Below the pieces are notes generated by a model. The model did not search any database. It was not told the origin of the DNA and saw only the letters and a program-made list of their open reading frames with translations. 64,000 nucleotides of DNA from Pimelobacter simplex (GTDB lineage Bacteria > Actinomycetota > Actinomycetes > Propionibacteriales > Nocardioidaceae). Positions 49,870 to 63,115 of this stretch are shown piece after piece. Both the position numbers and the translations under genes were made by a program. Every line of letters starts with the position of its first letter. Position 1 is the stretch's first letter. The stretch is from positions 4,402,001 to 4,466,000 of the forward strand of contig NZ_CP096276.1 in the NCBI RefSeq assembly GCF_024662235.1, in the 5' to 3' direction.

Positions 49870-52085
49870 TCAGCGGCCGCGGGGGATCTCCTCGATCACC
49901 TGGGCGCCGAGCTCACGGGCGAGGAGCTCCGCACTGGACTCCTCGTCGACCTCGGCGTCGGTGTCGAGGTTGACGTGGGCGTCGGGGTCCTCGGGCGGGG
50001 CATCGGCCTGGGCCTGGGCTTGGGCCTGGAAGTCGGCCATCCGGGGGCGGCGCGGCGTGGGCTCCGGGCCGGGACCAGGGCCGGGGTCGGGCGGGTAGCC
50101 GTCGTCGGGCGGCGGCGGCTCGGTGGCCCACGGCGGCGGGTCGTTGTCGGGGGCAGCTGCGGCAGGCGCGGCGGCCGAGGTCGAGGCCGGCGGCTGGGCG
50201 GGGGCGGCGGACGGGGTGGGCTCCGGCGACGCGGGCGTCGCCGGACCGGTGGCGGCGACCTCGGGCCAGCCTCCTGCGGACGCACCGGCGTCCGGCCCGG
50301 TGGCGGGAGCCGGGGACGGGGTGGGAGCGGGAGCGGGCGCCGGGGGCGGCGGACCCGCGGACGGGTTCGCGCCGGGGTCGATGATCGCCTCGACCCGGAC
50401 GTTGGCGCCGATCTCGTCGATCACCGCCTGCTGGACGATCTCGGCGTGCCCGCCGGTCTCGAACGAGCGGCGCGGTCCGTCGTTCTGGAAGCCGAGGCTG
50501 AGCACGGATCCGTTGAACCCGACGACCTGGGAGTTCTGGGTGAGGTGGATCCAGGTGACCCGCTTGACGCTCTTGACCCGGTCGATCACCGACGGCCAGA
50601 GCCGGCGGACGTCGACGAGGGTGAGGCCGCTCCCGGTGGCAGCCGGCTCCGGCGCCGGCACGGGCGGGGGCGCGGGAGCCGGCTCGGGCTCCCGCACCGG
50701 CTCGGGCTCGGGCTCGGGCTCCGGCGGGGTGCCGCGGCAGCGGGCACCGGCACGGGCACCGGCACGGGAACGGGCGCCGGGGCCGGGGCCGGGGCCGGGG
50801 GCCGCTCCTCGGCGAGCTCGGGCGCGGCCCGCTCGGCGCGCGAGGGTGCCGGCCGGTCCTGCGCCGGTACGGCGGCCGGGGCCGGCGCGGGCGCCGCCTC
50901 CGCGGACGTCGTACCGCTGATCGAGGCGCGGCGCTCGAGCCGGTCGAGGCGGGCGAGGACGCCCTCGGTGGTGTGGTCGGCGGCGGGGAGCAGGATCCGG
51001 GCGCAGATCAGCTCGAGCAGCAGCCGCGGCGCGGTGGCCCCGCGCATGTCGGTGAGCCCGGCGGCGACCAGGTCGGCGGCCCGAGTGAGCTCGCCGCGCC
51101 CGAAGGCGGTCGCCTGGGCGACCAGGCGGTCGGCCTGGTCGCTGGCGACGTCGAGGAGACCGGACGCCGCGGCGTCGGGCACCGCGGAGATGATGACGAG
51201 GTCGCGCAGCCGGCGCAGCAGGTCCTCGGTGAAGCGGCGCGGGTCCTGGCCGGTCTCGATCACCTTGTCGACCACGCCGAACACCGCCGAGCCGTCGCCC
51301 GCGGAGAACGCCGAGACGACGTCGTCCAGGAGCGTGTCGGGCGTGTAGCCGAGCAGCCCGCTGGCCAGCTCGTAGGTCACGCCCTGCGGCCCGGCACCGC
51401 CGAGCAGCTGGTCGAGCACGGAGAGGGTGTCGCGCGCCGACCCCGCCCCCGCCCGTACGACGAGCGGCAGCGCCGCGGGCTCCATGGCCACGCCCTCGCG
51501 CTCGCACAGCTCGGTCAGGTACGACGTCAGGAGCCGCGGCGGGATCAGCCGGAACGGGTAGTGGTGGGTGCGCGAGCGGATGGTCGGGATGACCTTCTCG
51601 GGCTCGGTCGTGGCGAAGATGAACCGCAGGTGCGGCGGCGGCTCCTCGACCAGCTTGAGCAGGGCGTTGAAGCCCTGCGTGGTGACCATGTGGGCCTCAT
51701 CGATGATGTAGACCTTGTAGCGGCTCTTGACCGGCGCGAAGAACGCCTTCTCGCGCAGGTCGCGCGCGTCGTCGACACCACCGTGCGAGGCGGCGTCGAT
51801 CTCGATCACGTCGATCGACCCCGGGCCGTTGCGGGCCAGGTCGCGACAGCTCTCGCACTCACCGCACGGGTCGGAGATCGGGGCACGTTCGCAGTTGAGG
51901 GCGCGGGCCAGGATCCGCGCGCTCGTGGTCTTGCCGCAGCCGCGTGGGCCGGAGAAGAGGTAGGCGTGGTTGACCCGGTTGCCGGCGAGGGCGGCGCGCA
52001 GCGGCTCGGTGACGTGCTCCTGCCCGATCACCTCGGCGAAGGTCTCGGGCCGGTAGCGGCGGTAGAGCGCGAGCGGGGAGTCCAC
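49870..52085 (-). CDS. dnaX: DNA polymerase III subunits gamma/tau, split over two frames by an apparent -1 frameshift
   Basis: The ATPase part (frame one, from the ATG at 52085) has Walker A GPRGCGKTTSARILARALNC, in part, four zinc cysteines (CGECESC), Walker B YIIDEAHM and the SRC-like ARDTLSVLDQLLG. The C-terminal tau part (DVRRLWPSVIDRVKSVKRVT, then NSQVVGFNGSVLSLGFQN, ending 49870) is in the other frame, shifted by -1. Total length is 2216 bases, one short of a multiple of three. Frame one, unshifted, stops at 50586 after an Arg/Ser/Pro tail. The break maps to the Pro-Glu linker near 50726-50729, a run of four G. Adding one base restores about 738 residues. It may be a real programmed shift, a mutation or a base-calling error. 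Confidence 0.9.
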
Positions 52086-52498: not shown

Positions 52499-53731
52499 TC
52501 AGCGCCGCCGCGACAGCAACGGCCGCAGCACGATCAGTACGACGAGCGCCGCGCCGCCGCCGAGCCCCCACCAGACCGCGTCCTCGCGGGCGCCGGCCAG
52601 GACGTCGGCCTGCTCGCGCGGGGGCCGGGCGGGCGTCATCGGGTCGGCGTCGGGGACGGGGGCGGTGTCGATGCGGCGCTGGACGGCCTCGACGGGCTGG
52701 ACGACGCCGTAGCCGGTGACGGCGCTGGTGCGGCCGCCGCTGCCGCTGGCGGTCTGCTCGAGGCGGCGGGTGAGGGTGGCGGCGTCCTCGTCGGGGTGGG
52801 CCGACCAGACGAGGGCGGCGACGGCGGCGACCTGGGCGGCGGCCCAGTGGGTCGAGGGGGTGGTCAGGGTGCACCAGCCGCCGTTGAGGCCGCGGGAGAC
52901 GGCGCCGGCGCCGGGGGCGGCGAGGTCGATGCGCGAGCTGCGCAGGACGGTGCCCGCGGTGGGGTCGGCGACGCCGACGGCCAGGACGCCGGGCGCGGCG
53001 GCGGGCCAGACGATGCCGGCGGCGTCCTCGCCGACCTTGTCGTCGGCGAGCTGCTCGGGGAAGGTGCCGGCCTCGGGTCGGTCGCCGGAGGCGGCGACGA
53101 CGAGGGCGCCGGAGGCGACGAGGCGGGCGACCTGCTTCTCGAGCGCGGCGGAGTGGGGGACCTGGGTCGGGACCAGCACGACCAGGCGTCCGCGATAGGC
53201 GCCGGACCGCTGGTCGGCGATCCGGTCGAGCGTCCCGGCCAGGCCGGACGCCATCGGGACCACCTCGCCGTCGGAGCGTTGGGACGCCGGGGCCGTGTAG
53301 AAGGACTCGGACAGGACCGTGGCCTCCGGCGCGATGCCGACGTCGACGCGGACCGGGGCGGCCTGGTCGCGGCCGCCGATGATGCCGGCCGCGGCGAGCC
53401 CGTGCCCGCTCGAGGTGCCCGGCTGCGCGGCGTCGGGTGAGCTGAACGGCGTGTCGACGACGACCACGGCGACGCCCGCGCCCGCCTTCTTGCCGCTGAG
53501 CGCGCGGGCGGCCTCCTGGGCCTGGGGGACCTGGAGCCGCTCGTTGGCGGCGTTGGAGCCGCCCACCGTGAGCTGGTCGGCGTAGTCCTCGGTGACCGAC
53601 GGGCAGTCCGGGCCGGTCGGCTCGGCAGCACCCACCACGCCCGCCACGCCCGCGCCGGCCGCCGCGGGCGCCGGTGCGGGCACCGCGAGGCTCAGGGCAA
53701 CGGCCGCGAGCGCGGTCGCTAGGTGCCGCAC
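52499..53731 (-). CDS. Mycosin-like subtilase of the type VII secretion locus, catalytic Ser lost
   Basis: 410 residues from the GTG at 53731, which overlaps the eccB stop by 13 bp. It has a signal peptide, a subtilase (S8) domain and a C-terminal transmembrane anchor (WWGLGGGAALVVLIVL), the mycosin layout. Asp93 (VVVVDTPF) and His110 (SSGHGLAAAGII) are kept. In the block that should read GTSFAAPYVAG the sequence is STHWAAAQVAA, so the nucleophile Ser is His295. The oxyanion Asn is also replaced (VVAASGDRPE). It is probably a non-proteolytic, structural mycosin; mycosins are known to stabilise the secretion complex apart from protease activity. Confidence 0.85.
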   Translation of the reverse strand: MRHLATALAAVALSLAVPAPAPAAAGAGVAGVVGAAEPTGPDCPSVTEDYADQLTVGGSNAANERLQVPQAQEAARALSGKKAGAGVAVVVVDTPFSSPDAAQPGTSSGHGLAAAGIIGGRDQAAPVRVDVGIAPEATVLSESFYTAPASQRSDGEVVPMASGLAGTLDRIADQRSGAYRGRLVVLVPTQVPHSAALEKQVARLVASGALVVAASGDRPEAGTFPEQLADDKVGEDAAGIVWPAAAPGVLAVGVADPTAGTVLRSSRIDLAAPGAGAVSRGLNGGWCTLTTPSTHWAAAQVAAVAALVWSAHPDEDAATLTRRLEQTASGSGGRTSAVTGYGVVQPVEAVQRRIDTAPVPDADPMTPARPPREQADVLAGAREDAVWWGLGGGAALVVLIVLRPLLSRRR

Positions 53732-55119
53732 GTCCGGGTCCGGGACGGCGGGCAGAGGGCGGCGTCGATCGAGAGCTCCGGGCCGTCCTCGAAGAGCTTG
53801 TTCCACACATCCGGTACGACGACGGCCGGCACCTTGTCGTAGCCGAGCTTGCCCAGCTCGTCCCGGCCCGCCACCTGGTAGCTGTAGCCGCGGTCGTCGA
53901 TCAGGTGCAGGGTGCCGTCGGCGGAGGTGTTCCAGTCGGCCGAGCGGACCAGCGCGCCGCGGCCGGACTCGACGTCGGCCTCCTGGGCGCCGGGGACGAC
54001 GTCATCGGCGGCGACCGCGCCCTCGGGATCGGTGGCGAGCACCACGGCGGGCTGCTCCCCCTTGGCCGTGACGAGCTCGGCGCAGACCTGCTGGGTCGCG
54101 CCCGGCGAGCCGGAGATCAGGTCGGTGGGCCACGAGGCGCCGGCATAGGGCGAGTCGGGGACGACCCGGTAGCCGACGCCGTCCTTGGGCGTCACCACCG
54201 CAGGCTGGCGGGTGCCGGCCAGCACGCCGGCCGCGAACTCGGTCAGCTCGGCCGGACCGGCCTTGGTGATCACGTAGGAGGCGCCGGACTTGGTGAACAC
54301 GTCACCGACAGCCGCGCCGGGGAAGCTCGGCAGCCCGGCGTCCTCGCCGAGGCCGGTGACGCCGAGTCCCTCGGCGTCGAGCGCACCGCCGGGCGGGAAC
54401 AGCTCGAGCCAGGCGTCGGGGACCTCGATCTCGTTGCCGGGCTGGACGTTGAGGGCCGTGGTCAACGGCCCGGAGTCCAGGTCGGGCAGCAGGTAGCGGT
54501 AGGCGCGGCGCGGGTGCCCGGGCACCTCGGCCTCGGCGATGAGGTAGGTCTTCTTGCTGGTCGTCCCGGTGACCACGAAGCCCTGGTCGGGCGTGGTCGT
54601 GACGCCGGGCCGCTCCCGGACCGCGGCGCGGACGCCCAGACCGGTGCCGGTGCAGGCGGTCCAGCGCGAGTTGACCAGCTGGTCGGCCAGCGGCACGGTC
54701 GCGGGGGCGTCGAGGATGCCGATCGGCGGCCCCTTGGGCTGCGAGGCGATCTCCTTGTCGGGGACCTTGCGGGCCTTGATGTCGGCGCCGAGGATCAGCT
54801 GGGCCGAGGTGACGTTGATGACCGGGCGGATGGTCGGCTCGCCGGGCACGAGGTCCTGGTCGAGGATGACGTAGAGCGCGCCGCGCTCGTCGCTGACCAG
54901 GCCGGGCTTCTTCCAGTCGACCTCGGCGCGCTGCGAGAGCGTCCCGGCGATCGCGGCGCCCGCGACGAGCAGGATCGCCAGGGCGACGCCGCCGACGATC
55001 ATCCGGCCGGGCCGGGCGGGCTCCACCTCGCGGCCACCGGGTGCGCCGGAGACGAAGGCGGTCACGAGCCGGCGGCGGCTGAACGAGTACGCCTCGACGA
55101 GGTCCTTCTTGGTCGCCAT
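53719..55119 (-). CDS. eccB: Type VII secretion membrane protein EccB
   Basis: 466 residues from the ATG at 55119. The N-terminal cytoplasmic segment TKKDLVEAYSFSRRRLVTAF and one transmembrane helix (MIVGGVALAILLVAGAAIAG) are the EccB signature, followed by a periplasm-side domain with repeats (KKPGLVSDERGALYVILDQD, in part) and a disulfide pair of cysteines (WTACTGTG and QQVCAELV). It starts 11 bases after the eccD stop and its stop overlaps the mycosin start. It is part of the membrane channel. Confidence 0.93.
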   Translation of the reverse strand: MATKKDLVEAYSFSRRRLVTAFVSGAPGGREVEPARPGRMIVGGVALAILLVAGAAIAGTLSQRAEVDWKKPGLVSDERGALYVILDQDLVPGEPTIRPVINVTSAQLILGADIKARKVPDKEIASQPKGPPIGILDAPATVPLADQLVNSRWTACTGTGLGVRAAVRERPGVTTTPDQGFVVTGTTSKKTYLIAEAEVPGHPRRAYRYLLPDLDSGPLTTALNVQPGNEIEVPDAWLELFPPGGALDAEGLGVTGLGEDAGLPSFPGAAVGDVFTKSGASYVITKAGPAELTEFAAGVLAGTRQPAVVTPKDGVGYRVVPDSPYAGASWPTDLISGSPGATQQVCAELVTAKGEQPAVVLATDPEGAVAADDVVPGAQEADVESGRGALVRSADWNTSADGTLHLIDDRGYSYQVAGRDELGKLGYDKVPAVVVPDVWNKLFEDGPELSIDAALCPPSRTRTCGT

Positions 55120-55130
55120 CGTGGTGCCGC

Positions 55131-56513
55131 TCAGCCGACCCAGTCGCGGACCTGCGCGAACAGCCCGGTCGCCACGACCAGGAGCGGCAGGAGGGTCAGC
55201 AGGGCGACGGACTCGAGGACGTCGCCGAGCCGGCCCCGTCGTACGGAGGGGGCGGCGGGGCTGAGCGTCGCGACCAGCAGCACCGCGCCGATGACGGCGA
55301 GGACGACGGCGAGCGTGGGCCGCCAGTCGGGGTGGAGCACGAGGACGGCGAGCGCGGTGGCCGCGATCCCGGCGATGCCGGAGCAGAGGCCGACGAGGAC
55401 CTCGCTGCCGGTGCGGTACTGCCGGGTGCGAAGCATGACGATCAGGCAGGCGTCGACGGCGAGGAGGGTGCCGGTGACGCCGAGGCTGACCGCGAGCGGG
55501 GAGACCAGGACGAGCAGCAGGCCGACCGTGCCGGAGATCGCGAGCAGGATCTCGTGGGCGATCCGGGCGTCGGCGGCGACCCGGCCGGGCTCGATGTCCT
55601 CGGGGTCGGAGGTGATGTCGGCGGGCGTGAAGAGCTGGTCGACCCGGGTCGACGTGGCGCCCAGCGCCAGCCACGGGAAGACGCTGCCCGCGAGGACGAC
55701 GAACGCCAGGACGGTGGTGAGCAGCGCGGCCGGGGCGATGCCGTCGGTCGCCGAGCGCAGGTAGAGGCCGACCGCCAGCGCCAGCGCGCCGACCACGACG
55801 GGCGGGAACACGAGCGTGCGGCCGGGGCCGAGCCCGATCAGGCAGATGACGCCCGCCACGAGCGCTCCCGCGCCGGCGGCCGCGAGCGGGTCGGCGAACC
55901 ACGAGGTGGTGCCGGAGGTGAGCATGACGCCGGCGATCGCGGCATAGCCCGCGCCCAGCCAGGCCACCCCGACGCCCGCCTCGGGCTCGCGCTGGGCCCG
56001 GGAGAGCACGATGGCGCCGGCGCACAGCACCAGCGCGACGAGGGCGGAGGCGGCCGCGGCCAGGTCGGAGCCACGCTGCACGAGCAGGGCCGCGGCGCCG
56101 AGGGCGAGGAACAGACCCGCCGCCACGAGCGCCGTACGGCGTCCGGTGGCCGGGCGCCACGGCTGGAGGTCGTGCTCGACGACGTCGGTCATCGCCTCGA
56201 CCACGTCGTCGTAGACCCGCGGGGCGGGGTCGTCGACGCCCGCGGTGACGGTGAGCAGTCCGCCGTCCTCGATGCCCTGGAGGGTGAGGCCGGTGTCGAG
56301 CGCGAGCCGGCGGCCGTCCGACGTACCGACCCGGTAGCCGCCATGGACGGTGGCCGGGTCGAGCAGCCCGACGCTGCGGGCGAGCTCGGGCAGCAGCTCG
56401 GCGACCGGGACGGCGCCGGGAAGCACGAGGTCCACGCGCCGGGTGCCGGACGTGACGGTCACCCGCACCAGTCCGGACGCGACCGTGCCGGCCGTCCGCG
56501 GCGTCTGTGTCAT
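55131..56513 (-). CDS. eccD: Type VII secretion integral membrane protein EccD
   Basis: 460 residues. The N-terminus is a ubiquitin-like YukD domain (VTVTSGTRRVDLVLPGAVPV and GLTLQGIEDGGLLTV). Ten to eleven hydrophobic segments follow, including ALVAAGLFLALGAAALLVQ and FVVLAGSVFPWLALGATSTR, and end with LPLLVVATGLFAQVRDWVG. It is the pore-forming component. A strong hairpin lies upstream, between it and the WXG100 genes. Confidence 0.93.
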   Translation of the reverse strand: MTQTPRTAGTVASGLVRVTVTSGTRRVDLVLPGAVPVAELLPELARSVGLLDPATVHGGYRVGTSDGRRLALDTGLTLQGIEDGGLLTVTAGVDDPAPRVYDDVVEAMTDVVEHDLQPWRPATGRRTALVAAGLFLALGAAALLVQRGSDLAAAASALVALVLCAGAIVLSRAQREPEAGVGVAWLGAGYAAIAGVMLTSGTTSWFADPLAAAGAGALVAGVICLIGLGPGRTLVFPPVVVGALALAVGLYLRSATDGIAPAALLTTVLAFVVLAGSVFPWLALGATSTRVDQLFTPADITSDPEDIEPGRVAADARIAHEILLAISGTVGLLLVLVSPLAVSLGVTGTLLAVDACLIVMLRTRQYRTGSEVLVGLCSGIAGIAATALAVLVLHPDWRPTLAVVLAVIGAVLLVATLSPAAPSVRRGRLGDVLESVALLTLLPLLVVATGLFAQVRDWVG

Positions 56514-56684: not shown

Positions 56685-56981
56685 TCAGAAGTCGAAGCGG
56701 GCGGCGCCGCGCTTGTCGGCGGCCATGTACTCCGCGTTGGAGGTGTAGACGCTCTTGTGGCTGTCGTCGAGCAGGTCGCGCATCTCCTGCATCGCCCAGT
56801 CCCAGGCGGCCTTGGCCTGGCGGTAGGCCTCCTGCTGGGTGCCGCTCCACGTGGCGACGTGGGGGGCGACGTCGGACTCGAGGCTGTTGAGGCTCTCGTC
56901 CATCTTCTTGACCGTGGCGTACATGTTCTGCGCGGCGGTGTCGAGCTCTGCGTGGTTGACGCGAAGTCCGTCGAGGCTCAT
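56685..56981 (-). CDS. WXG100 protein, second of the pair
   Basis: 98 residues from the ATG at 56981 (AGGAGA site). Two helices flank the turn ATWSGTQQEAY, in which Trp-Ser-Gly is the WXG motif, and the protein has the usual length. The C-terminus (YTSNAEYMAADKRGAARF) contains a YxxxD-like element, Y-x-x-x-D at YMAAD, the type VII export signal. It follows the other WXG100 gene by 47 bases. The two probably form a heterodimer exported by EccC. Confidence 0.93.
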   Translation of the reverse strand: MSLDGLRVNHAELDTAAQNMYATVKKMDESLNSLESDVAPHVATWSGTQQEAYRQAKAAWDWAMQEMRDLLDDSHKSVYTSNAEYMAADKRGAARFDF

Positions 56982-57028: not shown

Positions 57029-57355
57029 CTACTGCTGGCCGAGGCGGTTGAGCAGGTTGTTCATGCCGGCGCCGGCCTCTTCGTCGACGGCCTTGTTGTC
57101 GGCCTCGGTCGCGGTGAGGGACGCGTGGAACTTGTCGAGGGCGGTCGTGACCACCTTGTGCTTCTCGGTCCAGGCGACGTGGAGGGTGTGGAACGCCTGG
57201 CCACCGGCGCCCTCCCACTTGCCGCGCAGGGCCTGGATCTGGCCGTCGAGGGTGTTCGAGTGGTTGCCGAACTCCTCCTTGGCCTGGACGACCCGCTCGG
57301 CGATCTGCTTGAGAGCGCCCTCTGCGTGGCCGAACTCGATGTTCGATCCCGTCAT
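57029..57355 (-). CDS. WXG100 protein, first of the pair
   Basis: 108 residues. The helix-turn-helix hairpin has RGKWEGAGGQAFHTLHVAW, with WEG as the WXG motif, flanked by amphipathic helices (GALKQIAERVVQAKEEFGNH; TTALDKFHASLTATEADNK). The C-terminal extension ends in NNLLNRLGQQ and lacks a clear YxxxD. It is co-transcribed with the next WXG100 gene and the eccD gene. It has the features of an EsxA/EsxB-type exported partner. Confidence 0.93.
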   Translation of the reverse strand: MTGSNIEFGHAEGALKQIAERVVQAKEEFGNHSNTLDGQIQALRGKWEGAGGQAFHTLHVAWTEKHKVVTTALDKFHASLTATEADNKAVDEEAGAGMNNLLNRLGQQ

Positions 57356-57478: not shown

Positions 57479-58873
57479 TCAGCCGGTGACTTCCCACAGG
57501 AATCGGAAGAACCCGACGGCCACGACGAGGGAGCCCACGGCGAACGCGCCGCACAGCGCCTCGGCGATCTCGGCCCGGCGCGACCACCACGCCGAGCGCC
57601 AGCCGCGGCCGACCACGACGGCGACCAGGACGAGGACCACGGCGAGCGCGACGGAGGTCAGCGCGATGAACGTCGCGGGGCCCGTCGTACCGGGGCCCGC
57701 GATGCCGAGGACGACGACCGCGAGCGCGACGAGGGCGTAGACGCCGGCGATCCGGAGCAGCCGGCGCGCGACGGCGTGGCGGTAGCTGCGGGCCGCGAGC
57801 AGCAGCGTCGCACCGCCGAAGCCCACCAGGCACCGGGCGCCCGTGCGGTCGAGCGGGAGACCGGCCGTGGCCAGCAGCAGGGGCGCGGCGAGCAGCACCA
57901 CGACGAGGATGGCGACCGAAGCGGCGGTCACCGTGCGGGTCCCGCGGGCCGCGACGGCCTGGACCGCCTGGGGCGGGACGACGATCCGCCCGCGCCGCCC
58001 GGCGGGACGCTCCCGCGCGGACCACGCGGTGACGGCGAGGCGTTCGAGGTCGAGGAGGTACTGGTCCGGTACGTCGACCGCGATCTCGGGCACGAACCGG
58101 GCCGCGAGCACCGCGGCGAGGAAGAGCACCGCCCACACCACCTGGGGCGCGACGCCGGTCAGCGCACCCAGCGCGGCGAGCACGAACGAGCCCGCGCCGA
58201 CGACCATCCAGACCCGCAGCCCGTCGACGGCGGTGTCCCCGGGATCGGCGAGCGCCCGGCCCACGGCCGCGGCGATCGCGGCGCCCAGCGCGGCAGCACC
58301 GAGGACCGTGGGGAGCCGCTCGGGCAGGGGGTCCCAGACCAGGGCGAGCACGCCCGCGGCGGCGAAGGCGGGCGCCGCGAGCACCCGCTGGGGGGCGAGC
58401 GCGCCGAGCGGCAGGCAGCCGACCACGGCGGCCACGAGCAGCACGGCGGCCACCGGCCACCGCTCGCTCTCGGGCAGCTGGGCGGCGCACCAGCCCGCGA
58501 CGAGCGCGACGGCCACGGCGACACTCAGCCAGGCCGCCGACCCACCACCCGGGACGACGCCCCGCTCGCCCGACTCGCCGGATCCCGCGCGCCGCCGGGG
58601 CGGCGCGGGCCGGGCGGCGGGGTCGACCGCGACGAGCACCGCGCCGGCGACCAGCCCGGCGCCGGCCACGGTGGTGGTGAGCTGGAGCGGGGCTCCGGAG
58701 CGGCCCACGAGCGGCAGCGCGACCGGGAGACCCGCCTCGAGGGCGTAGGCGCGGGCGACGTCGCCGAGGGTCGCGTCGGTGGGCACGGTGAGGTCGAGGA
58801 CGCCTTGTGGACCGTGCACGGTCAGCGCGGTGACCGAGCCGGCCGCCGGCGGCCGGGACGTCGTCCCCGACAT
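57479..58873 (-). CDS. Second EccD-like type VII secretion membrane protein
   Basis: 464 residues with a ubiquitin-like N-terminus (LTVHGPQGVLDLTVPTDATL) and about eleven transmembrane segments, the EccD layout, but only generally similar to the eccD at 55131. A basic-Pro linker (RPAPPRRRAGSGESGERG) separates the domains. It is transcribed toward the WXG100 genes and divergent from eccC. It may pair with the first EccD, which forms a dimer in mycobacteria, or substitute for the missing EccE; this is inference. Confidence 0.8.
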   Translation of the reverse strand: MSGTTSRPPAAGSVTALTVHGPQGVLDLTVPTDATLGDVARAYALEAGLPVALPLVGRSGAPLQLTTTVAGAGLVAGAVLVAVDPAARPAPPRRRAGSGESGERGVVPGGGSAAWLSVAVAVALVAGWCAAQLPESERWPVAAVLLVAAVVGCLPLGALAPQRVLAAPAFAAAGVLALVWDPLPERLPTVLGAAALGAAIAAAVGRALADPGDTAVDGLRVWMVVGAGSFVLAALGALTGVAPQVVWAVLFLAAVLAARFVPEIAVDVPDQYLLDLERLAVTAWSARERPAGRRGRIVVPPQAVQAVAARGTRTVTAASVAILVVVLLAAPLLLATAGLPLDRTGARCLVGFGGATLLLAARSYRHAVARRLLRIAGVYALVALAVVVLGIAGPGTTGPATFIALTSVALAVVLVLVAVVVGRGWRSAWWSRRAEIAEALCGAFAVGSLVVAVGFFRFLWEVTG

Positions 58874-59017: not shown

Positions 59018-62000
59018 GTGACGATGGGCATCCAGCAGGGCGGCGCACAGGGGCGCCGGGCGGCTCCGGCTGCCCCGGACCCCTCGGCGGGGGCCGGCAG
59101 CCTGACCCAGCGCGGCAGCCGCGGCGAGCGGCCCGACCTGCCCAGCGGCCAGCTCCAGATCCAGCCGCCGCCGCAGGTCCAGCCCAACGAGGGCGCGGCC
59201 GGCGTCGCGATGAACGCGATCCCGATGCTCGGCAGCCTCGGCTCGATCGTGCTCGTCGCCAGTCTCGGCAACTCCGGCGGCGGCAACCAGGGGCTGCGCT
59301 TCATCGCGGCCGGCATGTTCCTCTTCGCCACGCTCGGCTTCATCGTCGTCCAGATCGACCGGCAGCGGAAGCAGCGCCAGCAACAGGTGAGCGGCTCGCG
59401 CACCGAGTACCTCCGCTACCTCGCCACCGTCCGCAAGGTCGCCCGCGACGCCGCCGACCAGCAGCGCCGGGCGCTGACCTGGTTCCACCCCGCGCCCTCC
59501 GCGCTGCCCTCGATCGCCGAGGACCGCTCGCGGGTCTGGGAGCGCTCGTCGTCCGACCCCGCCTTCCTCCAGGTCCGCTACGGCGTGTGCGCCCAGCCGC
59601 TGGCCCTCGAGCTGGTCCCGCCCGAGAGCGCGCCGATCGACGACGTCGACCCGGCCGCCGCCTCGGCGCTGCACCGGCTGCTCGTCGTCCACCGGCTCCA
59701 GCCCGACCTGCCCGCCTCGCTCGACCTGCGCGCCTTCGACCGGGTCGAGGTGTGCGGCGACGAGGAGGAGGCGCGCTCGCTGGCCCGGGCGCTGCTGTGC
59801 TCCGCGGCGACCTTCCAGTCACCCGAGAACCTCCAGGTCGCGGTGCTCGCCAACGACCAGACGCTCGCCCACTGGGACTGGGTCAAGTGGCTGCCCCACG
59901 CCCACAGCCAGCACCACAACGACGCCGTCGGCCCGGCGCGCATGGTCACCACGTCGCTCCATGACCTGGCCGCGATGCTGCCGCCCGACCTCACCGAGCG
60001 GCCGCGCTTCGGGGCCGACGAGCGGGCCGCGATCCCCCACATCATCCTGGTCACCGACGGCGGCGAGCTGCCGCCGGGCAACCACCTCATCCCGTCCGAC
60101 GGGCTGCACGGCGTGACCGTCGTCGACCTGCCCGCGCGCTGGGGCGAGCTCGACAGCCCGACCGCGCTGCGCCTCGAGATCGAGGACCACGTCCGCGACG
60201 CCGAGACGGCGCCCGACGAGGTGCCGCTGGTCGCCGTACGGCTGCGGACCGAGCCGGTGCGCGCCAAGGGTGACCAGTGCGGCCCGGCCACGGCCGAGGC
60301 GCTGGCCCGCCGGCTGACGCCGCTCTTCACGCCCAGCGCCGGTGCGGCGGTCGGCGAGGACGCGGTCGACATCACCGCGCCCACCGACTTCATGGACCTG
60401 CTCGGCCTCGGCGACGTCCGTACGTTCGACCCCGCCGCGGCCTGGCGGCCCCGACCCTCGCGCGACCGGCTCCGGGTGCCGATCGGCGTCGGCGACGGCG
60501 CCGGGCCGATCCACCTCGACATCAAGGAGTCCGCCCAGCAGGGCATGGGCCCCCACGGCCTGGTGATCGGCGCGACCGGCTCCGGCAAGTCCGAGTTCCT
60601 GCGCACGCTCGTGCTCGGGCTCGCGATGACGCACTCCCCCGAGCAGCTCAACATGGTGCTCGTCGACTTCAAGGGCGGCGCGACGTTCGCGGGCATGGCC
60701 GAGATGCCGCACGTGTCCGCGGTGATCACCAACCTCGCCCAGGAGCTCACCCTCGTCGACCGCATGCAGGACGCCCTCTCCGGCGAGATGGTCCGGCGCC
60801 AGGAGCTGCTCCGCGAGGCCGGCAACTTCGCCTCGATCCGCGACTACGAGAAGGCGCGGACGTCGGGCGACCCGGCCTCGGCCCACCTGGCCCCGCTGCC
60901 CTCGCTGTTCCTCGTGGTCGACGAGTTCTCCGAGATGCTGTCGGCCAAGCCCGAGTTCATCGACCTCTTCGTCGCCATCGGCCGCCTGGGCCGCTCGCTC
61001 GGCCTGCACCTGCTGCTCGCCTCGCAGCGGCTCGAGGAGGGCCGGCTGCGCGGGCTCGAGTCGCACCTGTCCTACCGGATCGGCCTGCGCACCTTCAGTG
61101 CCCAGGAGTCGCGCGCCGTGCTCGGCGTCCCCGACGCCTACGAGCTGCCGGCCGTGCCGGGCCTGGGCTACCTCAAGCCCGACCCGACGACGATGACCCG
61201 GTTCAAGGCGGCCTACGTCTCCGGTCCGCCCGAGGCGGGCCGGCGCCGGGTCGACCGCGACAGCGGCGGCAAGCTGCGCGGCATCCTGCCGTTCACCATC
61301 TCCGAGGTGCAGACCTTCGACGAGCCCGAGCCCGACGACGGGTCCGCGACGCCCGCCCCGGCGAGCGACAGCGGCGAGACCCTGCTCGACGTCGCCGTAC
61401 GCCGGATGGACGGCCAGGGTCCGGCCGCGCACCAGGTCTGGCTGCCGCCGCTCGACCAGCCCGACACGCTCGACCAGCTCATGCCCGACCTCGCCGCGCA
61501 CCCCGACCTCGGCCTGGTCTCGCTCCAGTGGCGCAACGCGGGCACGCTCGTCGTACCTCTGGGCACGGTCGACCGCCCCCGCGAGCAGCGCCGCGACACC
61601 CTGACCGTCAGCCTCAGCGGCGCGGCCGGCCACGTCGCCGTCGTCGGCGGTCCGCGCAGCGGCAAGAGCACCCTCCTGCGCACCATCGTGACCAGCCTGT
61701 CGCTGACCACGACGCCGCTGGAGTCGCAGTTCTACGTGCTCGACTTCGGCGGCGGCACGTTCGCCCCGATGACCGCGCTCCCCCACGTCGCCGGCGTCGG
61801 CACCCGCTCCGAGCCCGAGGTCGTGCGCCGGATCGTGGCCGAGGTCAAGGGCATCGTCGACCGCCGCGAGCGCTACTTCCGCGCCCAGGGCATCGACTCG
61901 ATCGAGACCTACCGCAGCCGGCGCTCCCAGGGCCGGGCCGACGACGGCTACGGCGACGTCTTCCTCGTCATCGACGGCTGGGGCACGCTGCGCTCGGACT

Positions 62001-63115
62001 TCGACGACCTCGAGCTCGAGATCCAGCAGCTCGCCGGCCGCGGACTCACCTTCGGTCTCCACGTGGTCACCGCGGCCGCCCGCTGGCCCGACTTCCGCGC
62101 CGCGATGCGCGACCTCATCGGCACCCGCCTCGAGCTGCGCCTGGGCGACCCGATCGACTCCGAGATCGACCGCAAGATCGCCGCGCTGGTCCCCAACAAC
62201 CGCCCCGGACGCGGCCTCGTGCCCGGCAAGCTCCACTTCCTCGGCGGCCTGCCCCGGATCGACGGCAACGGCTCGGCGACCAGTCTCGGCGACGGCGTCG
62301 ACGCGCTCATCTCGGCCGTCGCCGCCGCCTGGCGCGGCCCGGCCGGCCCCAAGCTGCGGCTGCTGCCCGACCGGATCAGCCTCGCCGACGTCCGCTCGCT
62401 CGCCGGTACGCCGCCGGCCCGCCACCTGCTCCTCGCCATCAACGAGAAGGAGCTGGCCCCGGTCGCCCTCGACGTCGACGCCGAGCCGCACCTGCTGCTC
62501 TTCGGCGACGGCAAGTCCGGCAAGTCCGGGCTGCTGCGCACCTACATCCACGAGGTCATGCGCACCCGCACCTCGGCCGAGGCCCAGGTCGTTCTCGTCG
62601 ACTACCGCCGCTCGCTGCTCGGCGAGGTGCCCGAGGAGTACCTGCTCAACTACCTGACCTCGGCCACCCAGGCGCAGCCGGCGCTCAACGACCTGGCGAC
62701 GTACCTGCAGAACCGGATCCCCGGCCCAGACGTCACCCCCGACCAGCTCCGCAACCGCTCCTGGTGGTCGGGCGCCGAGGTGTTCGTCGTGGTCGACGAC
62801 TACGACCTGGTCGCGACCCAGCAGAGCTCCCCGGTGGCGCTCCTCCAGCCGCTGCTCGCCCAGGCCCGCGACGTCGGCCTGCACCTGGTCGTCGCGCGCC
62901 GCTCGGGCGGTGCCTCGCGGGCGCTCTACGAGCCGGTCATCCAGACCATGCGCGACCTCGCCATGCCCGGGATCCTGCTCGCGGGCAACCGCGACGAGGG
63001 CGTCCTCCTCGGCAACCTGCGGCCCGGCCCTGCCCAGGCCGGACGCGGGCGCCTGGTCACCCGCGACCGCGGGGCCGAGGTGGTCCAGCTCGCCTGGACC
63101 GATCCGTCACTGTGA
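59018..63115 (+). CDS. eccC: Type VII secretion ATPase EccC (FtsK/SpoIIIE family)
   Basis: 1365 residues from the GTG at 59018 (AGGGG five bases before). Two transmembrane helices (about 65-110) precede a DUF of EccC, then three FtsK-like ATPase domains: Walker A GATGSGKSE (about residue 518), GGPRSGKST (about 878) and GDGKSGKSG (about 1163), the first with Walker B SLFLVVDEFSEML. The first domain does the work of coupling; the others bind substrate, usually the C-terminus of WXG100 proteins. It is a single fused chain, as in most actinobacteria except some ESX systems split in two. It is on the opposite strand to the rest of the locus. Confidence 0.95.
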   Translation: MTMGIQQGGAQGRRAAPAAPDPSAGAGSLTQRGSRGERPDLPSGQLQIQPPPQVQPNEGAAGVAMNAIPMLGSLGSIVLVASLGNSGGGNQGLRFIAAGMFLFATLGFIVVQIDRQRKQRQQQVSGSRTEYLRYLATVRKVARDAADQQRRALTWFHPAPSALPSIAEDRSRVWERSSSDPAFLQVRYGVCAQPLALELVPPESAPIDDVDPAAASALHRLLVVHRLQPDLPASLDLRAFDRVEVCGDEEEARSLARALLCSAATFQSPENLQVAVLANDQTLAHWDWVKWLPHAHSQHHNDAVGPARMVTTSLHDLAAMLPPDLTERPRFGADERAAIPHIILVTDGGELPPGNHLIPSDGLHGVTVVDLPARWGELDSPTALRLEIEDHVRDAETAPDEVPLVAVRLRTEPVRAKGDQCGPATAEALARRLTPLFTPSAGAAVGEDAVDITAPTDFMDLLGLGDVRTFDPAAAWRPRPSRDRLRVPIGVGDGAGPIHLDIKESAQQGMGPHGLVIGATGSGKSEFLRTLVLGLAMTHSPEQLNMVLVDFKGGATFAGMAEMPHVSAVITNLAQELTLVDRMQDALSGEMVRRQELLREAGNFASIRDYEKARTSGDPASAHLAPLPSLFLVVDEFSEMLSAKPEFIDLFVAIGRLGRSLGLHLLLASQRLEEGRLRGLESHLSYRIGLRTFSAQESRAVLGVPDAYELPAVPGLGYLKPDPTTMTRFKAAYVSGPPEAGRRRVDRDSGGKLRGILPFTISEVQTFDEPEPDDGSATPAPASDSGETLLDVAVRRMDGQGPAAHQVWLPPLDQPDTLDQLMPDLAAHPDLGLVSLQWRNAGTLVVPLGTVDRPREQRRDTLTVSLSGAAGHVAVVGGPRSGKSTLLRTIVTSLSLTTTPLESQFYVLDFGGGTFAPMTALPHVAGVGTRSEPEVVRRIVAEVKGIVDRRERYFRAQGIDSIETYRSRRSQGRADDGYGDVFLVIDGWGTLRSDFDDLELEIQQLAGRGLTFGLHVVTAAARWPDFRAAMRDLIGTRLELRLGDPIDSEIDRKIAALVPNNRPGRGLVPGKLHFLGGLPRIDGNGSATSLGDGVDALISAVAAAWRGPAGPKLRLLPDRISLADVRSLAGTPPARHLLLAINEKELAPVALDVDAEPHLLLFGDGKSGKSGLLRTYIHEVMRTRTSAEAQVVLVDYRRSLLGEVPEEYLLNYLTSATQAQPALNDLATYLQNRIPGPDVTPDQLRNRSWWSGAEVFVVVDDYDLVATQQSSPVALLQPLLAQARDVGLHLVVARRSGGASRALYEPVIQTMRDLAMPGILLAGNRDEGVLLGNLRPGPAQAGRGRLVTRDRGAEVVQLAWTDPSL

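Follow-up and report, generated by a model that had tools for sequence, protein, structure and literature searches.

We found that the mycosin-like S8 subtilase encoded in the type VII secretion system (T7SS) locus of a 64,000-nucleotide stretch of the Pimelobacter simplex genome (hereafter the window) has lost both its catalytic serine and its oxyanion-hole asparagine, and we consider it probable that this protein is a mycosin without protease activity that has been kept for a structural role in an ESX-4-like T7SS. Its status as a pseudo-protease is, as far as sequence can speak to it, well supported. The open reading frame runs on the minus strand from 53731 to a stop at 52499 (52499..53731; 410 residues) and begins with a GTG codon. 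Its first 13 nt (53719-53731) also form the end of eccB, and this overlap, with no obvious ribosome-binding site, suggests that translation of the mycosin is coupled to that of eccB. The protein matched Pfam Peptidase_S8 (49.8 bits) and the NCBIfam model T7SS_mycosin (TIGR03921; 105.5 bits), the latter below the curated cut-off of 278.75, which was also missed by catalytically intact orthologs in the genus (e.g., 186 bits in G021 and 178 bits in G055). The nucleophile and oxyanion stretches read PSTHWAAAQVAAVAALV and AASGD. As to the Asp-His-Ser triad and oxyanion Asn of mycosins, the Asp (codon 93, 53453..53455, within VVVVDTPF) and the His (codon 110, 53402..53404, within SGHG) are kept, codon 295 (CAC, 52847..52849) gives His in the catalytic Ser column, and codon 217 (53081..53083) gives Asp in the oxyanion Asn column, all on the minus strand.

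The original prediction had named these same four residues, placing His295 by a gap-free alignment, and its register now has broader backing. In an alignment of the family profile with the solved MycP1 and MycP3, the Ser of MycP stands in column 295, its oxyanion Asn in 217, its Asp in 93 and its His in 110; in addition, relatives read STSW, STAW, STEW, SSHW or STHW at the nucleophile stretch, with Trp296 kept in 102/115 of them. The accompanying claim, of a protein dead at two residues and otherwise intact in layout, stood in part. A signal-peptide-like N-terminus (about residues 1-25, 53657..53731, minus strand) was seen by hydropathy in a region of low pLDDT, the predicted structure (pLDDT 90.8) has the subtilisin/mycosin fold, and a candidate C-terminal membrane anchor (about residues 384-407, WWGLGGGAALVVLIVLRPLL; 52511..52582, minus strand) was seen by hydropathy and as a modeled helix at 379-407, so that the signal peptide and anchor of a mycosin both appear to be present on hydropathy and the model. 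Two further positions are altered, however. The likely substrate-binding strand, NVSL-like in most intact relatives, reads VPTQ, with Pro at codon 188 (53168..53170, minus strand) where most intact relatives have Ser; pairwise alignments reproduced this register for one of three partners (that to the canonical mycosin P0117 also misplaced Asp93), and the placement of Pro188 in the substrate strand therefore rests on the multiple alignment. Residue 293 (52853..52855, minus strand), two residues before the lost nucleophile, is Ser in place of the Ala found in most intact relatives (14/18 triad-kept groups) and the Gly found in most canonical mycosins.

Profile matches bore out the earlier assignment of the surroundings to a type VII locus. 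Upstream of the mycosin on the minus strand are EccB (53719..55119, start inferred from the ORF; PF05108 188.9 bits, TIGR03919 159.8 bits), EccD (55131..56513; PF19053 and PF08817, TIGR03920 109.5 bits), two WXG100 proteins (56685..56981, start inferred, PF06013 52.1 bits on a longer ORF; and 57029..57355, PF06013 38.9 bits) and a second EccD-like membrane protein (57479..58873; PF19053 26.6 bits against a cut-off of 30), in which we detected no ubiquitin-like domain and which has a like gene in 76/80 genus loci. The EccC ATPase lies on the plus strand (59024..63115, start inferred from the ORF; TIGR03924 941 bits, TIGR03925 870 bits). One cluster thus holds the EccB, EccC, EccD, MycP and two WXG100 genes of an ESX-4-like locus, MycP being the dead copy; a general scan of the ORFs showed no EccA, EccE, EspG or PE/PPE. 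A YibE/F-like gene lies beyond EccC and dnaX lies downstream. The window dnaX (49870-52085) matches in two frames, its N-terminal part in 50586-52085 and its C-terminal part in 49870-51507, unlike the dnaX of L147, which is one long ORF; this split is a frameshift in a low-complexity stretch, either real or an error. Apart from the EccB adjoining the mycosin, the genome (6.26 Mb, three contigs) gave no PF05108 match, and a TIGR03921 search for an active mycosin elsewhere in it returned six stretches, that of the window mycosin included, none over the cut-off. Three candidates for a compensating mycosin (L004, L006 and L007) were rejected, since the pieces read showed ordinary GTSMA/GTSFA subtilase motifs and lacked a mycosin-like tail, and L003 gave no match to the family profile. 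Some other protease may substitute for mycosin cleavage.

We aligned the window protein with its 70 nearest relatives (P0003 to P0072; P0002 was left out, as it shares 99% identity with the window protein), those with names being from Nocardioides and Pimelobacter simplex. Five residues were invariant in these 71 sequences (Asp93, His110, Asp217, Ser293 and Trp296), Pro188 was found in 68/71, and residue 294 was always Thr or Ser. Column 295 held His in 32, Ala in 20, Glu in 11, Ser in 5 and Asp in 3, meaning that the oxyanion Asn was lost from 71/71 and the nucleophile from 66/71. As to whether relatives share the Ser-to-His change, the loss of Ser is common to most of them and His itself to fewer than half. 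With 52 of the 352 columns tested invariant, the nucleophile column is free to change while the His-Asp pair is held. The original prediction had also named a sequence error at codon 295 as something that would overturn it. The origin of the window in a single genome is all that speaks for a sequence or assembly error there; His295 recurs in relatives at 81% (P0003) and 77% (L019) identity, among the 32 nearest sequences noted above and in 7/74 genome loci (the window's included), so that sequencing error is excluded and the chance of it negligible. A protease still active through a shifted nucleophile, in which Ser293 or Thr/Ser294 would work with Asp93-His110, would fit the retention of all these residues throughout the 71 sequences, and yet we regard it as highly improbable. 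In subtilisin chemistry, replacing the oxyanion Asn by Asp brings a negative charge to the site that stabilizes the oxyanion, Pro188 likely disturbs the substrate strand, and Ser293 occurs also in lineages without His110.

The loss of catalytic residues extends well beyond the window. Our genus sample comprised 98 genomes, in 90 of which the family profile search matched something. The ortholog set consisted of 75 loci with a protein scoring >100 bits, plus L002 from the contigs of the window genome; removal of L082, which spans two reading frames, and of L084, G078's divergent canonical mycosin, left 74 orthologs, 73 from the genus sample plus one, and we also dropped duplicates (L005, L009 and L001) and three loci with another subtilase or one cut by contig ends (L085-L087). 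The window mycosin is orthologous to intact mycosins, as it has the same locus position and falls in one protein tree with 39 orthologs that keep D-H-N-S. Eight more of the 74 had the triad with another residue in the Asn column (Trp in 5, Asp in 3), and the triad was broken in 27, with Ser missing from 25 of these; all 27 were single open frames of 377-445 residues. The mycosin tree (75 rows, the four catalytic columns left out) had at least nine changes of triad state, and in it the 14 rows of the window's group formed a single clade (100/100 support). A quick, independent EccB+EccD+DnaX tree of 79 genomes, on which G063 and G018 had long branches and which came with a warning of joined long branches, had at least 11 changes of triad state, 9 of Ser and 8 of Asn217, the count of 11 covering gains and losses alike and possibly including a regain of Ser in G014. 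Before this tree was made G031 (cut by a contig end) was dropped, and G082 and G078 were absent since the loci used gave no EccB match at threshold (L150 of G082 was not among the EccB rows, and G078 was represented by L084 only). His110 was lost in 13/14 of the other dead lineages and never in the window's group (71/71).

The dead copies appear to have been maintained. EccB and EccD were present in the loci of all 74 orthologs whatever their catalytic state; among 80 loci, one lacked EccC and four lacked the EccD-like gene, and the gene order was that of the window regardless of the site state where the pieces were visible. In nine close pairs from dead lineages (one of which, G014-GLHD, includes a copy that keeps Ser) dN/dS was 0.22-0.57 (median 0.42), compared to 0.17-0.35 (median 0.25) in nine intact pairs; a rank test with some genomes used twice put the dead pairs higher (p=0.013), and the difference was not significant when scaled to EccB dN (p=0.17). 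Values below 1 in the dead pairs indicate that purifying selection acts on the dead copies, perhaps with some relaxation.

Some loci in the genus have no mycosin at all. EccB scored over the cut-off in 82/98 genomes; the mycosin region was cut by a contig end in G031 and G090, and no mycosin lay beside EccB in five genomes (G088, G018, G063, G004 and G082), with EccB only partly recognized in G063 and G082, and G004 and G082 being drafts of many contigs. G088, a single contig, has a locus of EccC, EccD-like, both WXG100, EccD and EccB, and its whole genome gave no mycosin with the family profile (E up to 1e-3) or TIGR03921 (E up to 1e-15); the ORF following EccB there (L146:7757-9270) reads by eye like an alpha/beta hydrolase. 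A sixth case is G078, which has two type VII loci, one (L084) with a canonical mycosin (GTSFAAP) and one (L156) like the window's (EccC, EccD-like, two WXG100, EccD and EccB) with no family-profile match in 17 kb. In the mycosin-less loci L147, L148, L149 and L150 (G018, G004, G063 and G082) the window's query did not detect the second EccD-like gene, and these look like reduced type VII systems. As these six loci demonstrate, a mycosin is not strictly indispensable in the genus and the locus can persist without one, which tempers the original prediction of a structural pseudo-protease. They also favor a different account, which we hold to be unlikely, in which the whole mycosin became dispensable once cleavage was unneeded, and the dead copies are slowly heading towards loss of the gene. 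This would agree with the higher dN/dS of dead-lineage pairs, with at least three changes of mycosin presence on the EccB+EccD+DnaX tree (for the four such genomes placed, G082 and G078 not among them), and with an ortholog in G065 (L082) split over two reading frames, itself either a pseudogene or an assembly error. Slow decay accords poorly, however, with the full length and single frame of 27/27 broken-triad orthologs, with the 52/352 invariant columns among the nearest sequences and with dN/dS well under 1. Moreover, no absent-gene genome placed on the tree was inside a dead clade, and G088 was sister to an intact one, which points to loss without a visible dead stage.

We compared residue frequencies in 12 dead groups and 18 triad-kept groups (1510 residue tests), and the top three were Ser293 (11/12 dead versus 4/18 triad-kept), Pro188 (7/12 versus 0/18) and Asp217 (8/12 versus 1/18), with p-values of 2e-4 to 6e-4 that are uncorrected and do not survive Bonferroni correction over the 1510 tests. 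By alignment, all three map to the catalytic cleft. For Pro188 and Asp217, sign tests that compared independent pairs went in one direction only, with a median p of 0.06. A separate column scan ranked 93, 110, 217 and 295 high partly by construction, the groups having been defined by them; what we take from the 1510-test comparison concerns the remaining columns and Asp217, which had no part in defining the groups there. These enrichments, together with the invariance of D93, H110, D217, S293 and W296 in 71/71 sequences while 295 varies freely, raise the possibility of a repurposed cleft, i.e., a former active site that binds a peptide, a metal or a neighboring subunit through Asp93-His110, the new Asp217 and Ser293. 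We find this very doubtful, given that other dead lineages lose His110, that the enrichments carry the statistical limits just described, and that 295 is Ala or Ser in 25/71 of the nearest sequences and so supplies no constant further ligand; the last point also weakened a metal site of His/Glu/Asp295 with His110 and Asp217, which we had considered. A related proposal, and one we think quite unlikely, is that inactivation followed a shared path (Asn to Asp, strand Ser to Pro, Ala293 to Ser, and loss of the nucleophile) and that Asp93-His110-Asp217 became fixed in the window's clade, where the three residues would form a novel site for binding or regulation at the secretion chamber's mouth. The shared path is the most intriguing part of this analysis and the least secure.

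Retention as a structural mycosin is the reading we prefer, and it fits published work on mycobacterial mycosins. As stated in PMC5082899, M. marinum MycP1 S354A still secretes, as does a mutant equivalent to N239 of M. thermoresistibile MycP1 (oxyanion mutant N239Y), N239 coordinates the oxyanion hole according to the authors, and MycP is required for a stable complex. The ESX-5 system has a trimer of MycP5 that caps the EccB5 chamber with its proteolytic sites facing in and stabilizes ESX-5, as described in PMC8131196. From the stated role of N239 we infer that it corresponds to column 217; the Ser and oxyanion Asn mutated in the MycP work would thus be the two positions changed naturally here, and it is on this ground that we take the window protein as a scaffold mycosin. 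By analogy with mycobacterial MycP, the window protein would be exported, anchored by its C-terminal helix, and seated on EccB outside the membrane where it would steady the complex; that it is inactive, binds EccB and is needed for export is likewise inferred. Across the genus, proteolysis seems to have been dispensable repeatedly, with scaffold function usually keeping the gene. The claim of a structural pseudo-protease therefore held for its first part, with the Ser and oxyanion Asn replaced and the losses both shared and parallel, while the structural role is a probable one that agrees with the literature and with the survival, under purifying selection, of a full-length protein with its membrane anchor in a locus that is itself conserved. 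Counting against the scaffold reading are the invariance of Asp93, His110 and Asp217 in the window's clade, which a pure scaffold leaves unexplained, the six mycosin-less loci, and the higher dN/dS of dead lineages, which is as expected from relaxed constraint.

As a control, D/H/N/S was kept in 117/120 canonical mycosins, these being the best-scoring of 5770 (E up to 1e-20) and hence a sample biased towards intact ones. The three deviants were P0211 (DRDG), P0223 (DHTS) and P0221 (a gap at the Asp column). With Arg, Asp and Gly at its His, Asn and Ser columns, the canonical-type homolog P0211 may point to dead mycosins beyond the genus. Of the 30 best-scoring order-level loci, 28 had a profile match and none of these 28 a changed Ser; the Asp/His part was missing from L117, and L154, which belongs to a different genus in the family, retains Ser but carries Asp in the oxyanion column. 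A search of titles and abstract starts in open-licence PubMed Central papers found no description of naturally inactive mycosins. The sequences turn one odd protein into a case of recurrent natural loss of the mycosin triad across a genus. Mycosins are the 'conserved serine proteases' of T7SS, and the reason for keeping their activity is puzzling since mutants secrete without it. That one genus has, at a single locus, intact mycosins in some members, dead ones in others and none in a few is a natural experiment, in which sister species could be compared for their secreted proteins and complexes to reveal the purpose of cleavage and when the scaffold is dispensable. The many separate losses among relatives suggest that the channel needs the shape of the mycosin rather than its cutting activity.

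The best single-sequence PDB match of the window protein was PCSK9, which acts mainly without cutting its target; unlike the window protein, PCSK9 has retained the catalytic Ser, and it undergoes self-cleavage. Among mycosins, MycP1 and MycP5 of mycobacterial ESX-1 and ESX-5 share with the window protein the subtilase fold, the signal peptide, the C-terminal membrane helix, the Asp and His and an encoding together with EccB. MycP1 and MycP3 of known structure keep the Ser and Asn, however, both of which are replaced in the window protein, and the non-proteolytic role of MycP1/MycP5 was established with laboratory mutants (PMC5082899) whereas the substitutions here are natural. The window protein also scores far under the TIGR03921 cut-off and sits in an ESX-4-like locus rather than an ESX-1 or ESX-5 one. 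The core set of the ESX-4 type locus (EccB, EccC, EccD, MycP and two WXG100; as given in PMC4791881) is the same as that of the window locus, which differs in that its mycosin is dead and another EccD-like protein is present.
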